Origin: Xenorhabdus griffiniae
GTDB taxonomy: Bacteria; Pseudomonadota; Gammaproteobacteria; Enterobacterales; Enterobacteriaceae
Length of the DNA stretch: 64,000 nucleotides
Assembly (NCBI RefSeq): GCF_037265215.1
Contig: NZ_CP147737.1
Span: forward strand, 4,310,001-4,374,000
Reading direction: 5' to 3'
Each line of letters starts with the position of its first letter. Position 1 is the first letter of the stretch. Shown piece after piece: positions 7,408 through 19,022 of the stretch. The position numbers and the translations under genes are program-made. The notes under the pieces are model-generated. The model did not search any database and was not told where the DNA came from. It was given only the letters and a program-made list of their open reading frames with translations.

Positions 7408-8264
7408 TCCAGCTCCACCTTCTTGTTCAGCAACTTAGCCGCACGATAATAAACCAATAACATCAATCCCATTACCAACGTCAAACAGATGCTAGTCGCT
7501 GCCCCAAATGGCCAGTCACGGATATTGAGAAATTGGCTCTTAATCACGTTCCCGATCAGCAGGTTCTTCGCCCCGCCCATCAAGTCAGCCACATAGAACA
7601 GCCCCATCGCCGGTAACAAAACCAACAAACAACCCGCGATAATGCCCGGCATGGTCAATGGCACAATGATGCGGATAAAAGTCTGCAATTTCCCCGCCCC
7701 CAAATCGCGCGCCGCTTCCAGACAGGATTTATCCAGCTTCTCAATACTGGAATAAAGCGGCATCACCATAAACGGCAGCAGGATGTAAACCACCCCCAAC
7801 ACAACCGCTTCGGGGGTATACATAATGCGAAAGGGCTTATCGATAATCCCCACCCACATCAGAAAATCATTCAAGTACCCGCGGGTACTGAGGAACATCT
7901 TCAAGCCATAAATACGGATTAACGAGTTCGTCCAGAATGGCACGATCAACAGGAATAGCATCAGGGAACGCAGTTTCTTTGGCATACGAGCCAGGAAAAA
8001 AGCGAACGGATAGCCAATCACCAGACAGCATAGCGTCGCTATAATCGCCATATTCAGCGAATGCAGCAGCACCTCGGCATACAGCGGATCAAACAATCGG
8101 CTATAGTTATCCAGCGAGAATATCATCTGCACTAAATTGGCGTCATCACGGGTCAGGAAGCTGGTTCCGATGATCATCAGGTTCGGCAAAAAGACGAACA
8201 GCATCAGCCAGGATACGATGCCCGTAATGACGATATTCTGGAATAGTTTACGCGTCTTCTTCAT
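7404..8264 (-). CDS. potB: Spermidine/putrescine ABC transporter permease
   Basis: Inner-membrane permease of the PotABCD importer, 286 residues from the ATG at 8264 (MKKTRKLFQ), which matches the known PotB N-terminus; an in-frame ATG four codons earlier is less likely. The EAA loop is [17 protein letters not shown], and the C-terminus LLNKKVELE is characteristic. The start lies inside the end of potA, overlapping by 17 bases, so translation is coupled. Confidence 0.95.
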
Positions 8265-9363: not shown

Positions 9364-9847
9364 TTATGCTATCATCTATCCCTTGGAATAATGCAGATAG
9401 AACCGCCACGGGAAAAGACTGTGTTAGCTAGCAGGAGACATCATTTCTCCGCTAAAGCTCAAAGCCAGTGGCGCCGGTTGAAATTACGAAGCGCGCATCA
9501 TAAACGCAGTAAGCCCAAATTGAAAGCCGAAACAATGACAATATGTCATTTTTTATTACTATTTTATGAATGTTAACAACGTGCTCTATTTTGCTCCGAA
9601 TTTTACCGGATGGAAATAGTTTCATATCGGATATTTTTGGAATAAAAAAATGCTATTGTTTTTCAATGCATTTAGGCAGGTATCCAACCGATTCGGGATC
9701 AGGCTGCGGCCAGCTTTAAACTTCCCCCTTCCAGCGCGTGTTACTTTTGGGAAAAATTTTTTTATCTCTCTATGCCATATTCTTCTTCAATAGTGTGATA
9801 TTTTCCCTAAAAAAATATCTTGATAACTCATTTATAGGACTACAAAA
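9364..9847. other. Divergent intergenic region between potA and the PLP-enzyme gene
   Basis: About 480 bases carrying promoters for the pot operon (leftward) and the PLP-enzyme/antiporter operon (rightward). It is AT-rich near both genes. I see no MetJ-type tandem box, riboswitch or repeat element. TAGGA sits about 9 bases before the rightward ATG as a ribosome-binding site. Confidence 0.5.
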
Positions 9848-10993
9848 ATGATAAAAAATATAGCCACAGCATTAATCCACGGTGGAAAACAGCAAGACAA
9901 AGAAAACCATGCCATTTTCCCCCCTATCACAACAGCCAGTACTTTTGTACAGAAAGATTTATCTGAACATGGTGAATACTGCTATTCCCGTTGCAGTAAC
10001 CCCACACGCTATGCCTATGAAACATTATTAGCCGAAATAGAAGGGGGTATTTATGCAACGGCAACCGCCTCTGGTGTAGCTGCCGCGGCTTTAGTCTTAA
10101 ACTTGTTACCTAAAGAATCCCATATTATCGCAATGAAGGGAGTTTATGGTGGCACATTTCGTTTATTTGAACGGGTAGCGATTGAAAATAATGGCCACCA
10201 ATTTGACTATGTTGACTTAAATAACCTTACTGATATTAAGGATAAAGTAAGAGAGAATACTCGATTAATTTGGATAGAAAGCCCAACCAATCCATTATTA
10301 GAATTAGTTGATATCAAACGTATTTGTGCATTCGCAAAAAATCACAATATCTTAACTTGTGTTGATAATACATTTGCAACCGCATGGAACCAAAAACCCC
10401 TCGAATTAGGGGCAGATGTTGTGATGCTATCTACCAGTAAATATATTGGTGGCCATTCGGATCTTATTGGCGGAGCCGTTATTACACATCGGGATGATTT
10501 AGCCAATAAGCTGGATTTTTTAAAAACGACCACTGGTGCCATTGCCTCTCCCTTTGATGCCTATTTAGCATTACGTGGATTAAAAACATTAGCGTTACGC
10601 ATGTCAGCGCAATGTGCTAATGCTCTTGAAATTGCCAATTTTCTGCAATCCCACCCCAAAATTGAACAGGTCTATTATCCTGCTTTACCCACTCACCCGC
10701 ACTATTCCATTTGCCAGCAGCAAATGCGCGCAGGTGGTGCAGTCGTTACGATCAGATTAAAAGGTGAACTGGAAGATACAAAGAGGTTTGTAAGTAAGCT
10801 ACGCTATTTTGTTTTGGCAGAATCTCTCGGTGGCGTGGAGAGCATGGTTAACCATTCTGCCACAATGTCACATGGCTCAATGACAAAGGAAGAACGTGAA
10901 GAGATTGGTATTTATGATACTGTGTTACGCTTATCAGTAGGGATTGAAGATATTCGCGATTTATTAGCTGACCTTGAACAAGCATTAGAATAA
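9848..10993 (+). CDS. Transsulfuration-type PLP enzyme (cystathionine gamma-synthase/lyase family)
   Basis: A 381-residue Cys/Met-metabolism PLP enzyme. The PLP lysine is K198 in STSKYIGGHSD, the cofactor phosphate is bound around YSRCSNPTR, and the GVYGGTFRLF block follows. In methionine gamma-lyases the position after YG is usually a catalytic cysteine; here it is Gly, which favours a cystathionine lyase/synthase activity over methionine gamma-lyase. The next gene, 45 bases downstream, is an NhaC-family antiporter, so the pair probably handles a sulfur amino acid together with ion-coupled transport. The family is certain; the exact reaction is not decided by the sequence. Confidence 0.85.
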   Translation: MIKNIATALIHGGKQQDKENHAIFPPITTASTFVQKDLSEHGEYCYSRCSNPTRYAYETLLAEIEGGIYATATASGVAAAALVLNLLPKESHIIAMKGVYGGTFRLFERVAIENNGHQFDYVDLNNLTDIKDKVRENTRLIWIESPTNPLLELVDIKRICAFAKNHNILTCVDNTFATAWNQKPLELGADVVMLSTSKYIGGHSDLIGGAVITHRDDLANKLDFLKTTTGAIASPFDAYLALRGLKTLALRMSAQCANALEIANFLQSHPKIEQVYYPALPTHPHYSICQQQMRAGGAVVTIRLKGELEDTKRFVSKLRYFVLAESLGGVESMVNHSATMSHGSMTKEEREEIGIYDTVLRLSVGIEDIRDLLADLEQALE

Positions 10994-11038
10994 ATTTACT
11001 TAATATAGAAAATAACAATAAAATAAGGTAAGTAAAAA

Positions 11039-12463
11039 ATGAATGATTACGGTATTTGGACCATTATTACCCCTGTTGTCACAATTATTTTAGCTATATT
11101 CACACGCCAGGTTATTTTATCACTACTACTCGGCATATTAGTGGGTTTTACTGTCATTAATAACCATAATGTTATTTTAGGTATACAAGGAACTATTGAA
11201 GGTATTATTGATACTTTTTCCTCTTCCGGTAATACAAAAACCATCATTTTTATGTTGATGATTGGTGGCATAATGCGGCTTGTGGTTGTTACAGGAGGCG
11301 TGCGATCGTTAGTTCGTTTACTCACGGAAAAAACACAGCTAATTGAAAATAAAAAAGCAGTGCAATTTTTGGCAATGATCATTACATCATTAATTTTTAT
11401 TGAAAGCTCTATTAACCAATTAATTGCGGGAGCATCAACCAAGAAATTAGCCAGAAATTACGCTATCCCACCAGAAAAAATGGCTTACATTATCCAAACA
11501 TCCTGTGTTTCTGTTTGTTCTTCCGCCATGATCAATGGTTGGGGCGCTGCAATGATGGGGGTCATAGGTGTGCAGATTTCCAGAGGATTAATCAGCGGTG
11601 AACCATTCGATATCCTGGCTGGCTCTATGGTTTATAATATTATGGCTTGGTTATCTCTGGCTTCTGTCTTATTTTATATTTTTTCTAATGTTTCTTGGGG
11701 GCCAATGAAAACTGCGGAAATGTGCGCCTTACATGAACATGTAAATAGTGATATTGAAAACAAGCACAGTGAAGATAATGATGATATTATTGAACATCCC
11801 AACTGCCATACTTCATTAAACTTTTTTATTCCTATCTTATCAACGGTATTCATGCTCCCTATTGCTCTCTATATCACAGGTGATGGTGATTTTAGTAAGG
11901 GCAGCGGTTCAACCTCTATCTATTGGAGTGTTATCTTTGGAACCACAATCTCTTTTTTCTGGTTCTTATTACGCCGAGTTTTAACCATCGAAGCCTTTTT
12001 TAAAGAGCTTTATATTGGTTATGCCAGCATGATAAAAATAAGCTCTGTCATGGTATTGGCCTTCTTAATGGGTAACGTTTCCGCTGAGTTAAATACCGGT
12101 GCTTATATTGCACAAATGACTTCTGGTATTATTCCGGCGGGTTTTTCCATCGGTTTTATTTTCCTGATGAGTTCTATCATGTCATTAGCAACAGGCACCT
12201 CATGGGGGACATTTGCAATTATGATCCCCATTGGGGTACAGCTAGGTATTTCAGTGGGTATGCCTCCTGAATATATGATCGGTGCCGCAATTGCGGGTTC
12301 CATTTTTGGTGATATGACGTCGCCAATTTCCAGCGATGCTATCGTCGCATCAATGGCAACAGATTGTGATCATATTGAACATATTCGGACTCAAATGCCA
12401 TATGCGTTGGTTACTGCAAGTTTCGCTCTCGTTATCTATTTCTATTTAGGTTTCACTTATTAA
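11039..12463 (+). CDS. NhaC-family Na+/H+ antiporter-like transporter
   Basis: A 474-residue inner-membrane protein with about 11-12 hydrophobic segments. Typical NhaC-family blocks are FIESSINQLIAGASTKKLAR, LATGTSWGTFAIMIPIG and GDMTSPISSDAIVAS, followed by CDHIEHIRTQMPYAL. Members exchange Na+ and H+, or sometimes amine or amino-acid substrates. A hydrophilic, acidic loop lies around residues 235-260. It is cotranscribed with the upstream PLP enzyme, so a substrate tied to that enzyme (amino acid or amine product) is as plausible as simple Na+/H+ exchange. Confidence 0.85.
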   Translation: MNDYGIWTIITPVVTIILAIFTRQVILSLLLGILVGFTVINNHNVILGIQGTIEGIIDTFSSSGNTKTIIFMLMIGGIMRLVVVTGGVRSLVRLLTEKTQLIENKKAVQFLAMIITSLIFIESSINQLIAGASTKKLARNYAIPPEKMAYIIQTSCVSVCSSAMINGWGAAMMGVIGVQISRGLISGEPFDILAGSMVYNIMAWLSLASVLFYIFSNVSWGPMKTAEMCALHEHVNSDIENKHSEDNDDIIEHPNCHTSLNFFIPILSTVFMLPIALYITGDGDFSKGSGSTSIYWSVIFGTTISFFWFLLRRVLTIEAFFKELYIGYASMIKISSVMVLAFLMGNVSAELNTGAYIAQMTSGIIPAGFSIGFIFLMSSIMSLATGTSWGTFAIMIPIGVQLGISVGMPPEYMIGAAIAGSIFGDMTSPISSDAIVASMATDCDHIEHIRTQMPYALVTASFALVIYFYLGFTY

Positions 12464-12516
12464 CGGCAACCCACTAAGAATAATCGGTCTTTAAAATAAA
12501 ATTTAGGGGGATGATT

Positions 12517-12555
12517 ATGAAAAAAGTAGCAAAAATAGGCGTAACCAAGACATAA
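12517..12555 (+). other. Twelve-codon open frame with a strong SD (possible gene stub)
   Basis: ATG at 12517 preceded by AGGGGG gives MKKVAKIGVTKT and then TAA. It lies 53 bases after the antiporter stop in the same direction. The basic N-terminus looks like the start of a real protein. Either a short peptide is made, or this is the remaining 5' end of a lost third gene of the operon. Nothing downstream continues it in any frame. Confidence 0.3.
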
Positions 12556-12581
12556 ATAGACAATGTACAGATATCGCAAAA

Positions 12582-13205
12582 TCATCGTCGACTACTCATT
12601 ACGAGTTTAAACGCAAACAGCAAAAATAATCCGCCTGTCGCGCGATTCATCCACTTGATGACATTTTCACGGCGTAATAGATGGGAAAGCGGACGTGTGG
12701 CATAAATCAGTAACAATGACCACAATGTGCCAAGTAAGACATGGATCGTCACCAAACTAAATGTCCATAAAGTGGGTGAATGCCCTTGAGGAATAAACTG
12801 CGGCAGGAATGAAACATAAAACACGCCCATTTTGGGATTCAGTACATTTCCAAACATTCCTTTGATAAACCAATTCTGCCCCTTAACGGAAGAAGATACC
12901 TCTCCGCCAAGATCTTTGTTGGGGTGCCAGATCATTTGAATTCCCAACCAGCATAAATATAATGCGCCACACCATTTTAATATGTTGAACGCCAGCTCTG
13001 ATACCGCAATCAATGTGCCAAGGCCAAATGCCACCATTGCCCCCCAAATAAAACAACCCGTATTAATACCAAGAGCGGCCTGAAAAGCTTTTTTACCCCC
13101 TTCCACTGTTGCAGTTCGCAGAACTAGCGCAGTATCCAGGCCAGGGGTCAAAGTGAGCAAAGTCGCCGCCACTGTAAAGGCAAGCAAGGAATCCATAACT
13201 GTCAT
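12582..13205 (-). CDS. LysE/RhtB-family amino-acid exporter
   Basis: A 207-residue membrane protein from the ATG at 13205, chosen because GGAGA lies 6 bases upstream; the frame extends 10 codons further without a good SD. LTLTPGLDTALVLRTA near the N-terminus is the signature of the LysE/RhtB translocator family, and about six hydrophobic segments are present. Members export amino acids such as lysine, threonine or homoserine. The gene sits between the antiporter operon (convergent) and kptA, whose stop is 36 bases upstream in the same direction. Substrate is not predictable. Confidence 0.85.
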   Translation of the reverse strand: MTVMDSLLAFTVAATLLTLTPGLDTALVLRTATVEGGKKAFQAALGINTGCFIWGAMVAFGLGTLIAVSELAFNILKWCGALYLCWLGIQMIWHPNKDLGGEVSSSVKGQNWFIKGMFGNVLNPKMGVFYVSFLPQFIPQGHSPTLWTFSLVTIHVLLGTLWSLLLIYATRPLSHLLRRENVIKWMNRATGGLFLLFAFKLVMSSRR

Positions 13206-13240
13206 GTTTATCTCCGAATACAAAAACAGGGGCAAAAATG

Positions 13241-13786
13241 CTAAATGACACTGATATATTTAACAGGCACCGTTTTTGTCAACCAAACACCATTATCTGC
13301 CTGATAAAATTTAAAGCCTTGCTCATACATCAACTGAGTATCAATCTTCAAGATAATCACCTTACCGTGTCGTTGCCCCACTTTGATCGCCGTGGATTTT
13401 TCCGCCGATAAATGTACGTAATGACGTGTTCCCGCCACTAAGCCTTGCTTAAAAATCGAATCCAAAAAACGGGTGGCCGTTCCATGATATAAAATCTCAG
13501 GGGGCGTTTTTTCCTGATAGCGAATATCCACCTTCTGCGTTGAGTGCCCTTGTACTGCCCTGATACGTTTCTGATCCACAGAAATGGCAAACCGTTTTTT
13601 ATCATTGGTATCGACAATTTTTTCTATGATTGCATAGTTCAATCGCTTACCGTGATTGGCGGCACATTTGATCAATGTGCCGATATCGGCCCATCCTTCG
13701 CTATCTAAAACGAGGCCAATGGACTCCGGTTGATGACGCAATACGTAACTTAAGAACTTACTGATTTTAGTATCAACTTGATCCAT
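13241..13786 (-). CDS. kptA: RNA 2'-phosphotransferase
   Basis: A 181-residue Tpt1/KptA protein. In yeast the family transfers the internal 2'-phosphate left by tRNA ligation to NAD+; bacterial homologues retain the activity but their natural substrate is unclear. The N-terminal winged-helix block [17 protein letters not shown] and the C-terminal ADP-ribosyltransferase-like blocks [13 protein letters not shown] and [17 protein letters not shown] are typical, with length as expected. It is followed by the LysE gene and lies near vapBC, rtcB, rtcR and rbn, all RNA-cutting or RNA-repair genes. Confidence 0.92.
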
Positions 13787-13845
13787 ATTTTCACCTGTTA
13801 GTCTGAATTCTTTGCCCGTTTAACTCGCAACAGATCGTTAAGTTC

Positions 13846-13951
13846 TATACCAATCTCACTTCAAGATGCATGAGATTTCTCCCCGCAAAGCGGGGAGAAG
13901 TCAGGTTTCATATCGTGTTGTAAATTGCAACTTGAAGTTTAATGCGTATAT
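13846..13951 (-). repeat. ~105-bp palindromic intergenic element (family A)
   Basis: Minus-oriented copy between the divergent kptA and vapBC. The central hairpin TCTCCCCGCaaaGCGGGGAGA is intact. It ends about 40 bases before the vapBC promoter. Confidence 0.85.
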
Positions 13952-13988
13952 GTTAATTAATTGGTTAATATTAAATCTTACCTGTACT

Positions 13989-14028
13989 TTGACATAGACT
14001 TAAAGATGGCATATGCTTTGGCATATGC
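13989..14028 (+). promoter_or_regulatory. vapBC promoter with paired palindromic operator
   Basis: TTGACA (13989-13994), a 17-base spacer and TATGCT (14012-14017) form a good sigma-70 promoter. Two identical palindromes GCATATGC at 14009-14016 and 14021-14028 cover and follow the -10. This is the arrangement expected for autorepression by a VapBC complex, although binding is inferred. Confidence 0.65.
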
Positions 14029-14047
14029 ATACTATTTTTAGAGGTGA

Positions 14048-14314
14048 ATGATGGAAAGAATCGTAAAAATTTTCAAAAATGGGCGTAATCAAGCTATTCG
14101 GTTACCTGTCATGTTTGAATTTGATACTGATAGAGTTTACATCCGCCAAGATAAAAATGGGGATCTTATTTTGTCAAAAAACAAATCTAAACATGATGAT
14201 TGGGATTTATTTCTCAATATGTTAACTAATCTTTCTGTTCCAGATGATTTTTTAGATACCAGTGATCGTAATCAGGACATAACGAAACGCGATCCATTTG
14301 AAGGAACTCTTTAA
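14048..14314 (+). CDS. vapB: VapB-type antitoxin (AbrB/SpoVT fold)
   Basis: An 88-residue protein with an N-terminal swapped-hairpin DNA-binding domain (KIFKNGRNQAIRLPVMFEF, then VYIRQDKNGDLILS) and an acidic C-terminal tail that would wrap the toxin. GAGGTGA lies 6 bases before the ATG. Its TAA overlaps the vapC ATG by one base. It neutralises the PIN-domain toxin and, with it, probably represses the promoter upstream. Confidence 0.88.
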   Translation: MMERIVKIFKNGRNQAIRLPVMFEFDTDRVYIRQDKNGDLILSKNKSKHDDWDLFLNMLTNLSVPDDFLDTSDRNQDITKRDPFEGTL

Positions 14315-14706
14315 TGTACATGCTGGATACAAACACGGTCAGTTATATTTTTCGGAAAAATCAATTAATAATCAACAAATTGCGCACAATACCACCATCA
14401 AGAATATGCATATCCAGTATTACTGAAGCTGAATTACGCTATGGGATTACCAAACGGCAAAACAAGGAACTACAAAATATCGTCAACATGTTTATTGAGT
14501 CGGTCACTGTTTACGATTGGGACAGTGCCGCTGCAAAAACTTATGGCGAACTCCGTGCCAGTATGGAACAAATTGGTCGTGTTATGGGCACAATGGATCA
14601 ATTGATTGCTGCTCATGCCCTCAGTAAAAAACTGACGATGGTTACCAGTGATGCTGCATTTGGGATGGTTCATGGTTTAAGTGTCGAAGACTGGAGCAAA
14701 TATTGA
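14314..14706 (+). CDS. vapC: VapC-type PIN-domain toxin ribonuclease
   Basis: A 130-residue PIN-domain protein. The acidic metal-binding residues are in place: D5 in MLDTNTVSY, E40 in TEAELRYG, D95 in MDQLIAAHA and D113 in TSDAAF. Enteric VapC toxins cut initiator tRNA in the anticodon loop, and this protein is of that length and pattern, so tRNA cleavage is a reasonable guess. The ends made by PIN enzymes are 3'-OH and 5'-phosphate, which are not RtcB substrates; this matters when judging a link with the nearby rtcB. Confidence 0.88.
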   Translation: MYMLDTNTVSYIFRKNQLIINKLRTIPPSRICISSITEAELRYGITKRQNKELQNIVNMFIESVTVYDWDSAAAKTYGELRASMEQIGRVMGTMDQLIAAHALSKKLTMVTSDAAFGMVHGLSVEDWSKY

Positions 14707-14709
14707 CAG

Positions 14710-14727
14710 GTGGGACCACGGTCCCAC
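14710..14727. terminator. Hairpin between convergent vapC and rtcB
   Basis: Perfect stem GTGGGACC/GGTCCCAC with a two-base AC gap, just past the vapC stop. There is no clear T tract on either strand, so termination strength is uncertain. It lies 48 bases from the rtcB stop. Confidence 0.45.
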
Positions 14728-14774
14728 TTAACCCACAACCTCTCCTCCCCTAACGGATAACACTTCTTTGCTCC

Positions 14775-15995
14775 CTATCCTTTTACACACACTACCTGAC
14801 GTAAGGTATGCACGATTTCCACCAGCGATGATTGTGCTTCCATCACAGCATCAATATCTTTGTACGCCATCGGAATTTCATCGATCACATCGCTGTCTTT
14901 ACGACATTCTACATGGGCCGTCGCACGTATTTGGTCACTTACAGTGAAGCGTTTTTTCGCCTCGTTACGGCTCATTACCCGCCCTGCACCGTGGCTACAC
15001 GAACAAAAACTTTCTTCGTTCCCAAAGCCGCGGACGATATAACTTTTCGCACCCATCGATCCCGGAATAATCCCCATCTGGCCTTTACGTGTTACCAAAA
15101 CTTCTTCACCGTAATGCTGTTCACGCTGGACATAGTTATGGTGGCAGTTCACGGCTTCCTGTTGTGTTGTAAAGGGCTTGGGGATCTCACGTGACAACGC
15201 TTCAAGCACGCGGTGCATCATCACTTCTCGGTTCTGGCGGGCGTAATCCTGTGCCCAACCTACCGCTTCCATATAATCGTCAAAATAACGACTTCCTTCT
15301 TCGAAATACGCCAAGTCACGATCAGGCAGGTTAGCGATATGTTGTTGCATATCCTTTTGCGCCAATGTGATAAATAAATTCCCGATAGCATTACCTACAC
15401 CACGAGAACCGCTATGTAACATCACCCAAACGCGATCTACTTCATCAAGACATAACTCGATAAAATGGTTTCCCGTCCCCAACGTTCCCAAATGCTGATG
15501 GTTATTGGTGTTCAATAGTTTTGGGTATTTATCGGTAATACGCTTAAACCCATCCGCCAAAGTCGCCCAATGTTGATCCACAATCTCCGGTGCATTATGC
15601 CAAGCACCTTTATCGCGGCCGCCACGGTGTGTGGTTCGTCCATGCGGTACGGCTGCTTCAATGGCATGGCGAATATTTAACAGACTATCCGGTAAATCAG
15701 ATGCCACCAGCGAAGTACGCACCGCAATCATTCCACAACCGATATCCACCCCAACCGCCGCCGGAATAATGGCGCCTTGTGTCGGGATAACGCTACCGAT
15801 GGTAGAACCTTTACCGACATGGACATCCGGCATTACTGCCAGATGTTTGAAAATAAAAGGTATCTTGGCTGTATTTTGCAATTGGCTAATGGCTTTGGGA
15901 TCAACGGGTACGCCATTTGTCCACATTTTTACTGGCGCACCATTCTCTTGCGTCAATAAGTTATAAGCGTTGGTTTTCATTCCCGAGGTTATCAT
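14775..15995 (-). CDS. rtcB: RNA-splicing ligase RtcB
   Basis: A 406-residue RtcB (E. coli 408). It seals RNA 2',3'-cyclic phosphate or 3'-phosphate ends to 5'-OH ends using Mn2+ and GTP. Visible family blocks are VDIGCGM (metal-binding cysteine), HSGSRGVGN, and CSCSHGAGRVMSR containing the guanylylated histidine. AGGAG precedes the ATG. The gene diverges from rtcR, its activator, and has a sigma-54 promoter 75 bases upstream. rtcA, the usual partner in E. coli, is absent here: the gene is alone in its transcription unit. Confidence 0.95.
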   Translation of the reverse strand: MITSGMKTNAYNLLTQENGAPVKMWTNGVPVDPKAISQLQNTAKIPFIFKHLAVMPDVHVGKGSTIGSVIPTQGAIIPAAVGVDIGCGMIAVRTSLVASDLPDSLLNIRHAIEAAVPHGRTTHRGGRDKGAWHNAPEIVDQHWATLADGFKRITDKYPKLLNTNNHQHLGTLGTGNHFIELCLDEVDRVWVMLHSGSRGVGNAIGNLFITLAQKDMQQHIANLPDRDLAYFEEGSRYFDDYMEAVGWAQDYARQNREVMMHRVLEALSREIPKPFTTQQEAVNCHHNYVQREQHYGEEVLVTRKGQMGIIPGSMGAKSYIVRGFGNEESFCSCSHGAGRVMSRNEAKKRFTVSDQIRATAHVECRKDSDVIDEIPMAYKDIDAVMEAQSSLVEIVHTLRQVVCVKG

Positions 15996-16070
15996 TGTTG
16001 TGCTCCTTTAATTTTTACTAATCCGTCGTTTAAGACACATACTATCTCAGTGTGCTGACCATCTGGTTAT

Positions 16071-16087
16071 TGCCAATTACGTGCCAA
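16071..16087 (-). promoter_or_regulatory. Sigma-54 promoter of rtcB
   Basis: On the minus strand TTGGCACGTAATTGGCA matches the sigma-54 consensus, with GG and GC spaced by exactly 10 bases. It points at rtcB, 76 bases from the start codon. The divergent gene encodes RtcR, a sigma-54 activator, which makes the call strong. Confidence 0.85.
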
Positions 16088-16238
16088 CTTTGAAAAAAAA
16101 ACAGAAATATTTTTTATCTATTTGAAAAATAATTGATTTTATTTTCATCTAATCTTATTGATTGTTTTTGCAGATTAAACTCCCTATCTTTCTATATCGT
16201 TGTTTATAAATTTAGATAAGAAGAATCTAGGGAAGACA

Positions 16239-17813
16239 ATGAAACGCAGAGTCGCTATTGGTATTTTAGGTACAAAGTTAGACAGGCGAGGTAAGAAGGC
16301 TAATCGCTGGACGAAATGGCGCCCGACCATTGGTATGTGCCAACAACCAGAGTTGCCGATTGATAAGCTGGAGTTACTCCACCAAACCAATGACTCAATT
16401 TTGGCAGAAAGAATTAAGGAGGATATCGCCCAAGTTTCACCTCAGACAAAAGTGGTACTGAACGAAATCCACATTGGTGATCCGTGGGATTTTGAAGAAG
16501 TGTATACCGCGTTACTGGATTTTGCTGTCCGTTATCCTTTCGATATTGAAAACGAAGAGTATTTAGTACATATCACAACCGGCACTCACGTTGCACAGAT
16601 CTGCTGGTTCCTGCTGACTGAAGCCCGTTATCTGCCCGCTCAACTGCTCCAAACCTCACCTAAAAATGGGAAAGATGAAAACCATCCCGAAGGCGTTTAT
16701 ACGATTATCGATTTAGATCTTAGTCGGTACACTGCCCTAACCAACCGTTTCCAACGTGAACAACAGGAGCAAGTCGCATTCTTGAAGTCAGGTATTGCTA
16801 CACTCAACGCCAATTTCAACCACCTGATCGACCAAGTGGAACGCGTCGCCCTGCGCTCCACTGCACCGATTTTGCTGACTGGGCCAACGGGTGCCGGTAA
16901 ATCCTTTCTCGCCCGCCGGATCTATCAGTTACGGCAAGCACGCCATTTAATCAAGGGGCGATTTGTGGAAGTAAATTGTGCCACCTTGCGCGGTGATAAT
17001 GCGATGTCTACGCTGTTTGGTCACATCAAGGGCGCATTTACAGGAGCGATTCAGCCACGCACCGGACTTCTTCGTGAAGCCAATGGCGGCATTCTGTTTC
17101 TTGACGAAGTGGCAGAATTGGGGTTGGATGAGCAAGCAATGCTGTTAAAAGCGATTGAAGAAAAGAGCTTTCTGCCTTATGGATCGGATAAGGAAATACA
17201 CAGCGATTTTCAATTAATTGCCGGTACACACCGTGATCTGCGAGATTGGGTGATTCAGGGAAAATTCCGCGAAGATCTCTATGCCCGTATCAATATGTGG
17301 ACTTATCAACTGCCCGGTCTGGCACAACGTCACGAAGATATCGAGCCAAATATCGATTATGAGCTTGCCCGTTATGCTCAAATGCAACAAACGCAAGTTC
17401 GCTTTGATAAAGAAGCACGGCAAATTTACCTGCATTTCGCCTGTTCCGAGCAAGCACCGTGGCGGGGAAATTTTCGCGAACTCAGCGCTTCTGTCGCACG
17501 AATGGCGACCTTCGCTGAAAATGGCCGTATCAACCAACAGTTGGTTGAAGAGGAAATTACGCGGCTCAAGCAAAACTGGCGTACTGAAGTGCAATCTTCT
17601 TTGCTGCCAAATAACCTGCCGGAAATTGACCTGTTTGACCGCCAACAGTTGGAAACGGTGATCAAAGTCTGCCATGAATCCAGCAGCTTATCGGAAGCAG
17701 GTCGCAAACTATTTGCCGTTTCTCGCCAACAGAAAAAACAGCCTAATGATGCCGACAGGTTACGCAAATACCTTGCCCGCTTCGGTCTTGATTGGGAAAG
17801 CATTCGACATTAA
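16239..17813 (+). CDS. rtcR: Sigma-54-dependent activator of the rtc genes
   Basis: A 524-residue protein from the ATG at 16239 (MKRRVAIGILG, GGGAAG just upstream); an in-frame ATG 13 codons earlier has no SD. Residues 1 to about 170 are the RtcR/CARF-type sensory domain. The AAA+ domain follows with GPTGAGKS near residue 213, GAFTGA near 264 (sigma-54 contact) and FLDEVAEL as Walker B. The C-terminus has a helix-turn-helix (LSEAGRKLFAVSRQ). It activates rtcB when RNA damage is sensed; CARF domains bind RNA-end or cyclic nucleotide signals. rbn follows after 30 bases in the same direction. Confidence 0.93.
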   Translation: MKRRVAIGILGTKLDRRGKKANRWTKWRPTIGMCQQPELPIDKLELLHQTNDSILAERIKEDIAQVSPQTKVVLNEIHIGDPWDFEEVYTALLDFAVRYPFDIENEEYLVHITTGTHVAQICWFLLTEARYLPAQLLQTSPKNGKDENHPEGVYTIIDLDLSRYTALTNRFQREQQEQVAFLKSGIATLNANFNHLIDQVERVALRSTAPILLTGPTGAGKSFLARRIYQLRQARHLIKGRFVEVNCATLRGDNAMSTLFGHIKGAFTGAIQPRTGLLREANGGILFLDEVAELGLDEQAMLLKAIEEKSFLPYGSDKEIHSDFQLIAGTHRDLRDWVIQGKFREDLYARINMWTYQLPGLAQRHEDIEPNIDYELARYAQMQQTQVRFDKEARQIYLHFACSEQAPWRGNFRELSASVARMATFAENGRINQQLVEEEITRLKQNWRTEVQSSLLPNNLPEIDLFDRQQLETVIKVCHESSSLSEAGRKLFAVSRQQKKQPNDADRLRKYLARFGLDWESIRH

Positions 17814-17843
17814 CAGGAAAGCAATAGATAGGAGAACAACAAC

Positions 17844-18761
17844 ATGGAACTGAAATTTCTAGGCACCAGCGCTGGCATACCTACAAAAGAGCGCAATGTC
17901 ACCAGCCTGATCCTCGATTTACAGGGCACTCGCAACGCGCTGTGGATGTTTGATTGTGGTGAGGGAACCCAACACCAGATCCTTCATTCTTCCATCAAGG
18001 TATCTAAACTGGAGAAAATTTTTATCACTCATCTGCATGGTGATCATATTTTCGGCTTACCCGGATTATTGTGCAGCCGTTCAATGGGCGGTTCTAGCGC
18101 TCCCCTTACCTTATATGGGCCAACGGGGATACGTCAGTTTGTAGAAACCACATTGCAATTGAGCAGTTCTTTCTTGACCTATCCGTTGGAAATTATTGAA
18201 GTCCAGCCCGGACAGTTGTTTGATGATGGCGAACTGAAGGTCACGGCTTATGCCTTGAACCACCGCGTAGAATGCTATGGCTACCGTATTGAAGAACACG
18301 ATAAACCCGGCGCACTTGATACGGAAAAATTAAATCAGGATAACATTCCCCGTGGCCCGTGGATGCAGGCTTTAAAGCAGGGCGGCACAATAACCCTGGA
18401 AGATGGCCGTACAATTTGCGGCAAAGATTATCTAGGTACACCGATTCGTGGCAAATCATTGGCTATTTTTGGGGATACTGAACCGACACCCGAAGCACTA
18501 AAACTGGCAGCCAATGTTGATGTGATGGTACATGAAATCACGCTGGAAGATGCATTTACCGCGAAAGCCAACGAGAGAGGACATTCCACCACCAAACAAG
18601 CTGCAACATTGGCGCGTGATGCCAAAGTCAAACACTTTATCGCTACGCATATTAGCGGACGTTATGGACTTGAGGATTGCCCTCGATTATTGGCGGAATG
18701 CCGGGAAATATTTCCAAATACTGATTTGGCCGCAGATTTCGCCGCATTTATTGTTAAATGA
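17844..18761 (+). CDS. rbn: Ribonuclease BN / RNase Z (tRNA 3' processing)
   Basis: A 305-residue MBL-fold nuclease (E. coli RNase BN/ElaC 305). The zinc motif is [15 protein letters not shown], with later ligands in FGDTEPT and ATHISGRYG. It trims or cuts tRNA 3' ends and can act as exo- or endonuclease. AGGAG precedes the ATG. It lies only 30 bases behind rtcR with no terminator between, so it is probably cotranscribed with the RNA-repair regulator. Confidence 0.92.
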
Positions 18762-18783: not shown

Positions 18784-18888
18784 TACCTATAGACCTATCG
18801 CCTTTCAAGATGCGTCTTATATCTCCCCACGTAGAGGGAGATATAAACAATCACATTGATTTGCAAGCTGCAACTTGGGATTGATCTA
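18784..18888. repeat. Diverged palindromic element (family B)
   Basis: Related in layout to family A but with a different body: central ATCTCC..GGGAGAT stem and the arm TTGCAAGCTGCAACTTGGGA. Its right half matches, inverted, the fragment at 20915-20971. It sits directly downstream of rbn. Confidence 0.65.
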
Positions 18889-18913: not shown

Positions 18914-19022
18914 ATATACCAATCTAACTTCAAGATGCGTGTGATTTCTCCCCGCGAAGCGGGGGAGAAATCAGGTTTCATATCGTGTTGTAAATTGCAA
19001 CTTGAAGCTTAATGCGTATATA
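18914..19022 (-). repeat. ~105-bp palindromic intergenic element (family A)
   Basis: Minus-oriented copy, 26 bases after the family B element, with an extra G in the central stem (gcggggga). It fills most of the gap before the AhpD-like gene. Confidence 0.85.

Follow-up and report, generated by a model that had tools for sequence, protein, structure and literature searches.

The 64,000-nucleotide stretch of Xenorhabdus griffiniae DNA analysed here (contig NZ_CP147737.1, positions 4,310,001 to 4,374,000; hereafter the window) carries a new variant of the RtcR-controlled RNA-repair locus, of which kptA is the interesting part and rbn a lineage-specific companion. We lean, though only slightly, towards reading it as a reduced form of such a locus. 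RtcR would sense broken tRNA, its presumed activator in this strain, and switch on a sigma-54 promoter at 16071-16086 from which the RNA ligase gene rtcB would be transcribed; kptA, a member of the same ancestral operon, would clear 2'-phosphate ends, its likely substrate, a task that is performed by RtcA in E. coli and is vacant here; rbn would share the steady transcription of rtcR without being induced; and vapBC would be a separate cassette at the former place of rlaP. An earlier note on this DNA had proposed a tRNA damage and repair module made up of kptA, vapBC, rtcB, rtcR and rbn. The RNA-repair locus with its damage-sensing sigma-54 activator and the link to kptA held up, but the five genes do not form one module.

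The RtcR-controlled core and its promoter

All five genes were found where the earlier note had placed them, and open reading frames and profile matches confirmed the named families. The rtcR gene (16239-17813, plus strand) encodes a sigma-54 activator of 524 residues with an RtcR/CARF-like sensor (NF038308, 839 bits, cut-off 650), in which PF06956 covers residues 2-185 and the sigma-54 AAA domain PF00158 residues 190-354. No model named CARF matched the sensor, which had been described as CARF-type, but the RtcR N-terminal domain PF06956 is present and is termed a divergent CARF in the available part of PMC7790460 (all papers given by PMC number are cited from such parts). An RtcR with sensor and sigma-54 AAA domains, encoded divergently from rtcB, is a hallmark of an RtcR-controlled RNA-repair operon and is present here. 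The ligase gene rtcB (14775-15995, minus strand, 406 residues) matched PF01139 with 419.9 bits and has RtcB relatives in the PDB. A second open reading frame of the RtcB family (about 374 residues, 28-42% identical to the RtcB of the window) lies outside the window at G000:C1:2904448-2905482, G000 being the 4.77-Mb Xenorhabdus genome of the window.

The promoter facing rtcB (TGGCAC-N5-TGGCA, 16071-16086, minus strand) is located 91 nt before the start codon. Fourteen of the 15 Xenorhabdus leaders retain it, the exception being G202 with TGGCAT. This conservation is the basis of the identification, because the scan of the window alone was uninformative, sigma-54-like sites occurring in it at chance frequency (40 found, 41.8 expected).

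Comparison of the locus among Xenorhabdus genomes

Thirty Xenorhabdus genomes were searched for rbn, RtcR, KptA, VapC, RtcA and RlaP. The pyrB gene, found in all 30, served as site marker, and the loci compared were those of 28 genomes together with the window and X. griffiniae VH1, the nearest named relative at the locus (RtcR 99% identical). The stretches of G160, G200 and G218 end at contig ends near the site, and kptA of G201 lies on a separate contig. Pagel-type tests were carried out on a single-gene pyrB tree of the 29 genomes whose fetched stretch includes pyrB, using the chi-square approximation. The rtcR gene was intact in 14 genomes and broken in three (G223, G214 and G210), and the other 13 gave no full-length or long match, some of them retaining short pieces. 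Intact kptA was found in 12 genomes and intact rlaP in 11, a twelfth rlaP match being a fragment; rbn was intact in 23, broken in two and absent from five. A vapC gene lay at the locus in eight genomes, once as a fragment. Conservation of the kptA-vapBC-rtcB-rtcR-rbn neighbourhood, one of the checks proposed, was limited among these genomes to a single species: the complete set occurred in two of the 30 genomes (G000 and G012), both X. griffiniae.

kptA follows rtcR

The kptA gene (13241-13786, minus strand) encodes an RNA 2'-phosphotransferase of 181 residues, which exceeds the family cut-offs along the entire protein (PF01885, 168.8 bits, cut-off 26; NF002014, 257.6 bits, cut-off 239) and matches PDB entry 7kw8 with an E value of 1.1e-48. 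Only 5 bp separate it from its neighbour lysE (12582-13235, minus strand). Intact kptA was found in 11 of the 14 genomes with intact rtcR and in one of the 16 others (Fisher 9e-5), and the dependence of the two genes was also seen on the tree (Pagel-type p 0.0025). The same test gave p 0.32 for lysE and rtcR and p 0.29 for kptA and lysE; with lysE scored as unknown at cut contigs, the values were 0.27 and 0.15. Of the 18 genomes with intact lysE, 11 have rtcR, and nine of these also have an intact kptA, as against none of the seven without rtcR (p 0.002), showing that the loss of kptA is not merely a matter of large deletions. Thus, kptA follows rtcR through repeated losses while the neighbouring lysE does not, and the link of kptA to the RNA-repair locus was borne out across the genus.

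A search for RtcA (PF01137) yielded no match in the 30 Xenorhabdus genomes, that of the window included, while the E. coli positive control was found. RtcB joins 3'-phosphate or 2',3'-cyclic phosphate ends directly, and 2'-phosphate ends are not ligated by it, according to the available text of PMC9650030; KptA is described as an end-cleaning enzyme in RNA repair (PMC9503650). Since RtcA is absent, KptA is a natural candidate for the treatment of 2'-phosphate ends, and the predicted enzyme plausibly deals with these ends, which RtcB cannot join, in place of the missing RtcA. The proposal that KptA removes 2'-phosphates after ligation is unlikely, as direct joining of the kind described for RtcB in that part of PMC9650030 would be expected to leave no 2'-phosphate at the junction.

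Several observations weigh against the account favoured here. The locus decays often in the genus, rtcR being not intact in 16 of 30 genomes. kptA is missing from three genomes with intact rtcR (G224, G208 and G219) and is present once without it (G205), and the tree used for the co-loss tests was built from one gene. KptA leaves a 2',3'-hydroxyl end, which is not a substrate for ligation by RtcB, so that any help to ligation would be indirect at best. Finally, RtcA is required for the activation of RtcR in E. coli (PMC9650030, available part), and RtcR of the window may therefore behave otherwise or be partly idle.

Fuller sister loci and the deletion in the window

In sister species the genes are arranged in the order lysE-kptA-rlaP-rtcB-slipin on one strand, with rtcR-rbn on the opposite strand. 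Read from the promoter, the fuller operon comprises the sigma-54 site, a structured RNA, slipin, rtcB, rlaP and kptA, the last directly after rlaP, and is divergent from rtcR-rbn. The 91-nt leader between promoter and rtcB in the window resembles the leader RNA of slipin-bearing relatives at its start (16038-16068, minus strand) and the last 29 nt of slipin at its end (15998-16026, minus strand). The match to the slipin tail was better than the best of 200 shuffles in all five slipin-bearing relatives, and the match to the head of the RNA in three of the five, falling below it in the other two. As this leader starts like the RNA and ends like slipin, both were removed together; the window has lost the leader RNA and slipin through a readable deletion, and rlaP in addition. 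The slipin gene was initially read as a Ro60 gene, but Pfam assigned it to Band_7. Within the fetched stretches, to which the search was limited, two Lonsdalea loci (L052 and L057) carry rtcR and rlaP without a full rtcB, and a Chimaeribacter locus (L077) carries rtcR and rlaP with rtcB only as a piece of 105 residues.

Pairing of rtcR and rbn

The rbn gene (17844-18761, plus strand) encodes an RNase Z/BN of 305 residues, which is the sole match in the genome (NF000800, 511.7 bits, cut-off 398) and remains below the cut-off of the true_RNase_BN model TIGR02649 (445.9 bits against 563.7). It starts 30 bp behind the stop codon of rtcR, as the earlier note had reported. The two genes lie on the same strand, 11-82 bp apart, in all 14 Xenorhabdus genomes with intact rtcR, and they are also adjacent in Providencia (L044, L045, L047 and L048), Lonsdalea (L052 and L057), Erwinia persicina (L055 and L056) and Pantoea coffeiphila (L059). 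Large inserts split the pair in P. rettgeri (L049) and E. rhapontici (L054). The P. rettgeri locus encodes an invasin-like inverse autotransporter of 2638 residues (9644-17560, minus strand) directly after rtcR, where sister species have rbn, and a similarly placed large open reading frame parts the two genes in G090. In Morganella, Serratia, Chimaeribacter, Pantoea sp. AS-PWVM4 and more distant loci, no rbn was found next to rtcR. Of 198 genomes sampled from the family, 26 had an RtcR over the cut-off, and comparison of the rbn positions by hand placed rbn within 100 bp of rtcR in three, 10 kb off in one and elsewhere in 21, with no full match in the last. The pairing is real but lineage-limited.

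Within Xenorhabdus, rbn survives in nine of the 16 genomes without intact rtcR and therefore has work outside the Rtc response. Losses or breaks of rbn were confined to the genomes without intact rtcR (7 of 16, against none of the 14 with intact rtcR; Fisher 0.007, Pagel-type p 0.04). These figures bear on the possibility that kptA, vapBC and rbn share no function with a decaying RNA-repair locus and stand beside it by history. The frequent breakdown of rtcR, the survival of rbn after it, the common gene remnants and the 22 of 26 RtcR-bearing genomes of the family sample in which rbn is far away or lacking all agree with such neutral neighbours; the closer association of kptA than of lysE with rtcR and the restriction of rbn losses to genomes without intact rtcR do not. 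We regard it as unlikely, if still a serious contender.

Relatives in which the two genes are unlinked have the same surroundings of rbn. A gene that we take to be gor, with a Pfam match to pyridine nucleotide-disulphide oxidoreductase, adjoins rbn in 6 of 20 fetched loci; the order rbn-deoR-deoC was found in locus L114, and gor-rtcB-ORF-rbn in L115. In L115 (genome G130, with no RtcR over the cut-off) the rtcB between gor and rbn is intact and is likely a remnant of an rtc locus beside rbn. Changes of the label linked numbered four on the Rbn tree, where this label was given to four Xenorhabdus rows that lack rtcR and to a Providencia row with the genes 10 kb apart, and at least three on the RtcR tree, from which 11 near-copies and rows of fewer than 480 aligned residues were left out. 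Both one origin with later losses and repeated insertion upstream of rbn fit these trees. The pairing might reflect no joint function and merely mark the site, immediately upstream of a resident rbn, at which the rtc module inserts or persists, as the conserved surroundings and the tree counts would allow. The pair is, however, kept in three different surroundings (lysE/pyrB, deo and gor/rlmJ), always with rtcR first and on the same strand, and we think this explanation rather improbable. Joint movement of an rtcR-rbn unit between species found no support, as the Rbn tree follows lineages and the position of rbn is unchanged in the unlinked relatives.

Neither terminator-like nor promoter-like sites were found in the 30-bp gap between rtcR and rbn, in a weak scan that gave no promoter for rtcR as well; over the window, sigma-70-like and terminator-like sites were fewer than expected by chance. 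Likewise, no sigma-54-like site was present on the plus strand in the stretch between rtcB and rtcR or in the rtcR-rbn gap. With no such site before rbn or rtcR, steady expression of rbn alongside rtcR is expected, and rbn is probably co-transcribed with rtcR at a steady level, not induced by RtcR. RtcR-driven expression of rbn was dropped for want of a promoter site: the idea that the sensor raises the nuclease as well as the ligase is unsupported, as the conserved sigma-54 site faces rtcB and no counterpart was found before rbn.

vapBC at the former place of rlaP

The antitoxin gene vapB (14048-14314, plus strand) encodes 88 residues and just exceeds the cut-off of PF04014 (24.8 against 24.7 bits). 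The toxin gene vapC (14314-14706, plus strand) encodes a PIN-domain RNase of 130 residues (PIN, 50.6 bits) with PDB matches to 6sd6, 9h6a and 3tnd at E values of about 1e-20. Its best NCBIfam model, tRNA(fMet)-specific VapC (NF047863), scored 116.7 bits against a cut-off of 140, and NF010285 scored 86.5 against 143; judged by these nearest relatives only, the target would be tRNA(fMet). A sigma-70-like promoter candidate precedes the pair (13989-14017, plus strand; 10 of 12 consensus positions), although such sites are not above chance by themselves (six in the stretch, 11.0 expected). A perfect inverted repeat across its -10 region (14009-14028, plus strand; stem of eight pairs, loop of 4), which appeared as terminator-like in the scan, may be an operator.

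Remnants of rlaP were found between vapB and kptA or lysE in G224, G223 and G210 (E values 1e-12 to 1e-17). A possible 3' remnant of 17 residues in the window (13807-13857, minus strand) is weak (tblastn E 0.002; 3.1e-4 in G012). As these remnants lie beside vapB, vapBC occupies the former place of rlaP. Intact rlaP was present in none of the eight vapBC-bearing loci and in 11 of the 22 others (Fisher 0.014), an exclusion that was not significant on the pyrB tree (Pagel-type p 0.18). rtcR is intact in only three of the eight vapBC-bearing genomes, and vapBC often stands beside broken rtc genes. Five changes of vapBC were counted on the pyrB tree, which fit one arrival as well as several. From its sequence setting, vapBC appears to be a separate toxin-antitoxin cassette, either a bystander or a replacement of rlaP, and its inclusion in the module was not borne out. 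The caution that VapC ends are not RtcB substrates and that the toxin may be unrelated still stands.

The single module envisaged earlier, in which VapC cuts tRNA, RtcR senses the damage, ligase and RNase BN are raised together and KptA finishes the repair, draws on the tRNA(fMet) type of VapC and on the induction of rtcBA through RtcR by ectopic VapC-LT2 in E. coli, where growth inhibition was worse without rtcR (PMC5175333). Against this, the available part of the same paper reports no evident Rtc-dependent healing of the cleaved tRNA, the full gene set occurs in one species only, rbn lacks a sigma-54 site, and vapBC excludes rlaP and is often found beside broken rtc genes. We consider such a module very improbable, although VapC action and the RtcR response might intersect in this strain. 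No terminator-like site was found on the minus strand between rtcB and kptA in the scan of the window, and the anatomy would allow RtcR-driven read-through from rtcB to kptA, antisense to vapBC.

Palindromic repeats resembling repetitive extragenic palindromes, with a G+C-rich core (CCCCGC..GCGGGG), were seen by eye at 13845-13945, 18795-18875 and 18925-19015, in the gap between kptA and vapB and downstream of rbn.

A structured leader RNA in the sister loci

The most novel element to emerge is the leader RNA of the sister loci, lost in this strain. A fold of 28 predicted pairs is shared by 16 leaders from Xenorhabdus, Providencia, Lonsdalea, Erwinia and Morganella psychrotolerans, and in 22 of the pairs both partners are changed in one sequence or more. 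In the trimmed alignment, 96.9% of the cells pair, against 77.8% in shuffles, and 19 of 24 pairs and 93 cells are changed on both sides, against 31.1 in shuffles; when the pairing partner was slid along the alignment, pairing fell to 33-50%. The structure was derived from the alignment used to test it, which favours it. A model built from these leaders matched 17 of 47 sources with E values no higher than 4e-8, always in an rtc leader. Fifteen of the matches are training sequences and L056 nearly duplicates one of them, which leaves Azoarcus L062 (34.9 bits) as the independent match. The element lies on the minus strand in the sigma-54 leader of the slipin operon at the rtcR locus, for example at 7730-7820 in L038, 7731-7821 in L041, 7721-7813 in L044, 7744-7834 in L052, 7746-7835 in L055, 7713-7802 in L073 and 7587-7677 in L062. 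With filters off, Paraburkholderia and Burkholderia leaders scored 18 bits at the expected place, where ARAGORN reported a tRNA-like element. Matches of 13-19 bits (E 0.007-0.54) in L068, L036, L078 and L076 were not counted, and the single match among 369 class genomes, in G439 (27.9 bits), which is not beside rtc genes, was taken as chance. A T-arm-like motif, GGGTTCGANTCCC, follows the leader RNA in most leaders. In two Burkholderiales loci, L060 and L061, the tRNA-like element, to which ARAGORN assigned no type, occupies 7591-7663 (minus strand), between rtcR and slipin.

The window gave no match to the leader RNA model at E values up to 1, nor did its genome in the class search up to 0.001. 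Rfam yielded no leader match in six loci at the gathering score or in three loci up to E 5, and no TROVE (Ro60) protein was found in the 20 genomes searched, that of the window included; on these two results, identity with a Y RNA was rejected. No description of the RNA was found in the literature on slipin or RlaP with RtcB and on RtcR with RNase BN, RNase Z or noncoding RNA, a search that took in neither a key survey of 2016 nor a Y RNA paper of 2014, so that it may already be in print. It seems possible, if somewhat doubtful, that an undescribed structured RNA stands at the head of slipin-rtcB(-rlaP) operons under RtcR, with a long hairpin next to one resembling a T-arm and, after these, a tRNA-like T-arm module. 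Damage to tRNA would trigger synthesis of this RNA from the sigma-54 promoter, with no part played by Ro60 or RtcA, and the RNA would act as a tRNA mimic, either as a decoy for the damaging nuclease or as a scaffold bringing RtcB, RlaP and KptA to broken tRNA; the strain of the window would then be a natural deletion. If real and expressed, this RNA would be a Ro60-independent partner of RNA repair.

Comparison with known systems

Like the tRNA(fMet) VapBC systems of Shigella and Salmonella, the pair in the window consists of a PIN toxin overlapping a short antitoxin of the AbrB/MazE fold by one base; unlike them, its VapC is below the named NCBIfam cut-offs and is set inside an RNA-repair locus. 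The sister loci share rtcB beside rlaP with RlaP-associated RNA ligase systems (RlaP: PMC7824862), whereas the window has lost rlaP. The resemblance to YrlA and the Y RNAs of Ro60 operons is confined to the sister loci, where an operon under RtcR includes a structured RNA that is tRNA-like in parts; no Rfam match was obtained for it in the loci searched, and no TROVE protein in the 20 genomes.

Studies of RtcB and RtcR have used E. coli and Salmonella, which also have RtcA and need it for activation. RtcR binds 5' tRNA fragments whose end is a 2',3'-cyclic phosphate (PMC7790460). Xenorhabdus offers natural RtcR systems that lack RtcA and have KptA in the operon, in which 2'-phosphate handling and RtcA-free activation of RtcR can be tested, and the many stages of decay of the locus in the genus separate followers of RtcR (kptA) from genes that do not follow it (lysE and vapBC). 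The window resembles rtcBA-rtcR of E. coli and rsr-yrlBA-rtcBA of Salmonella in having rtcB under a sigma-54 promoter and a divergent rtcR with a CARF-like sensor (PMC5175333, PMC7790460, PMC9650030). It differs from them in the absence of rtcA and Ro60 throughout the Xenorhabdus and TROVE searches described above, in kptA as a member of the operon and in rbn behind rtcR, and its sister loci differ further in carrying rlaP, slipin and another RNA.

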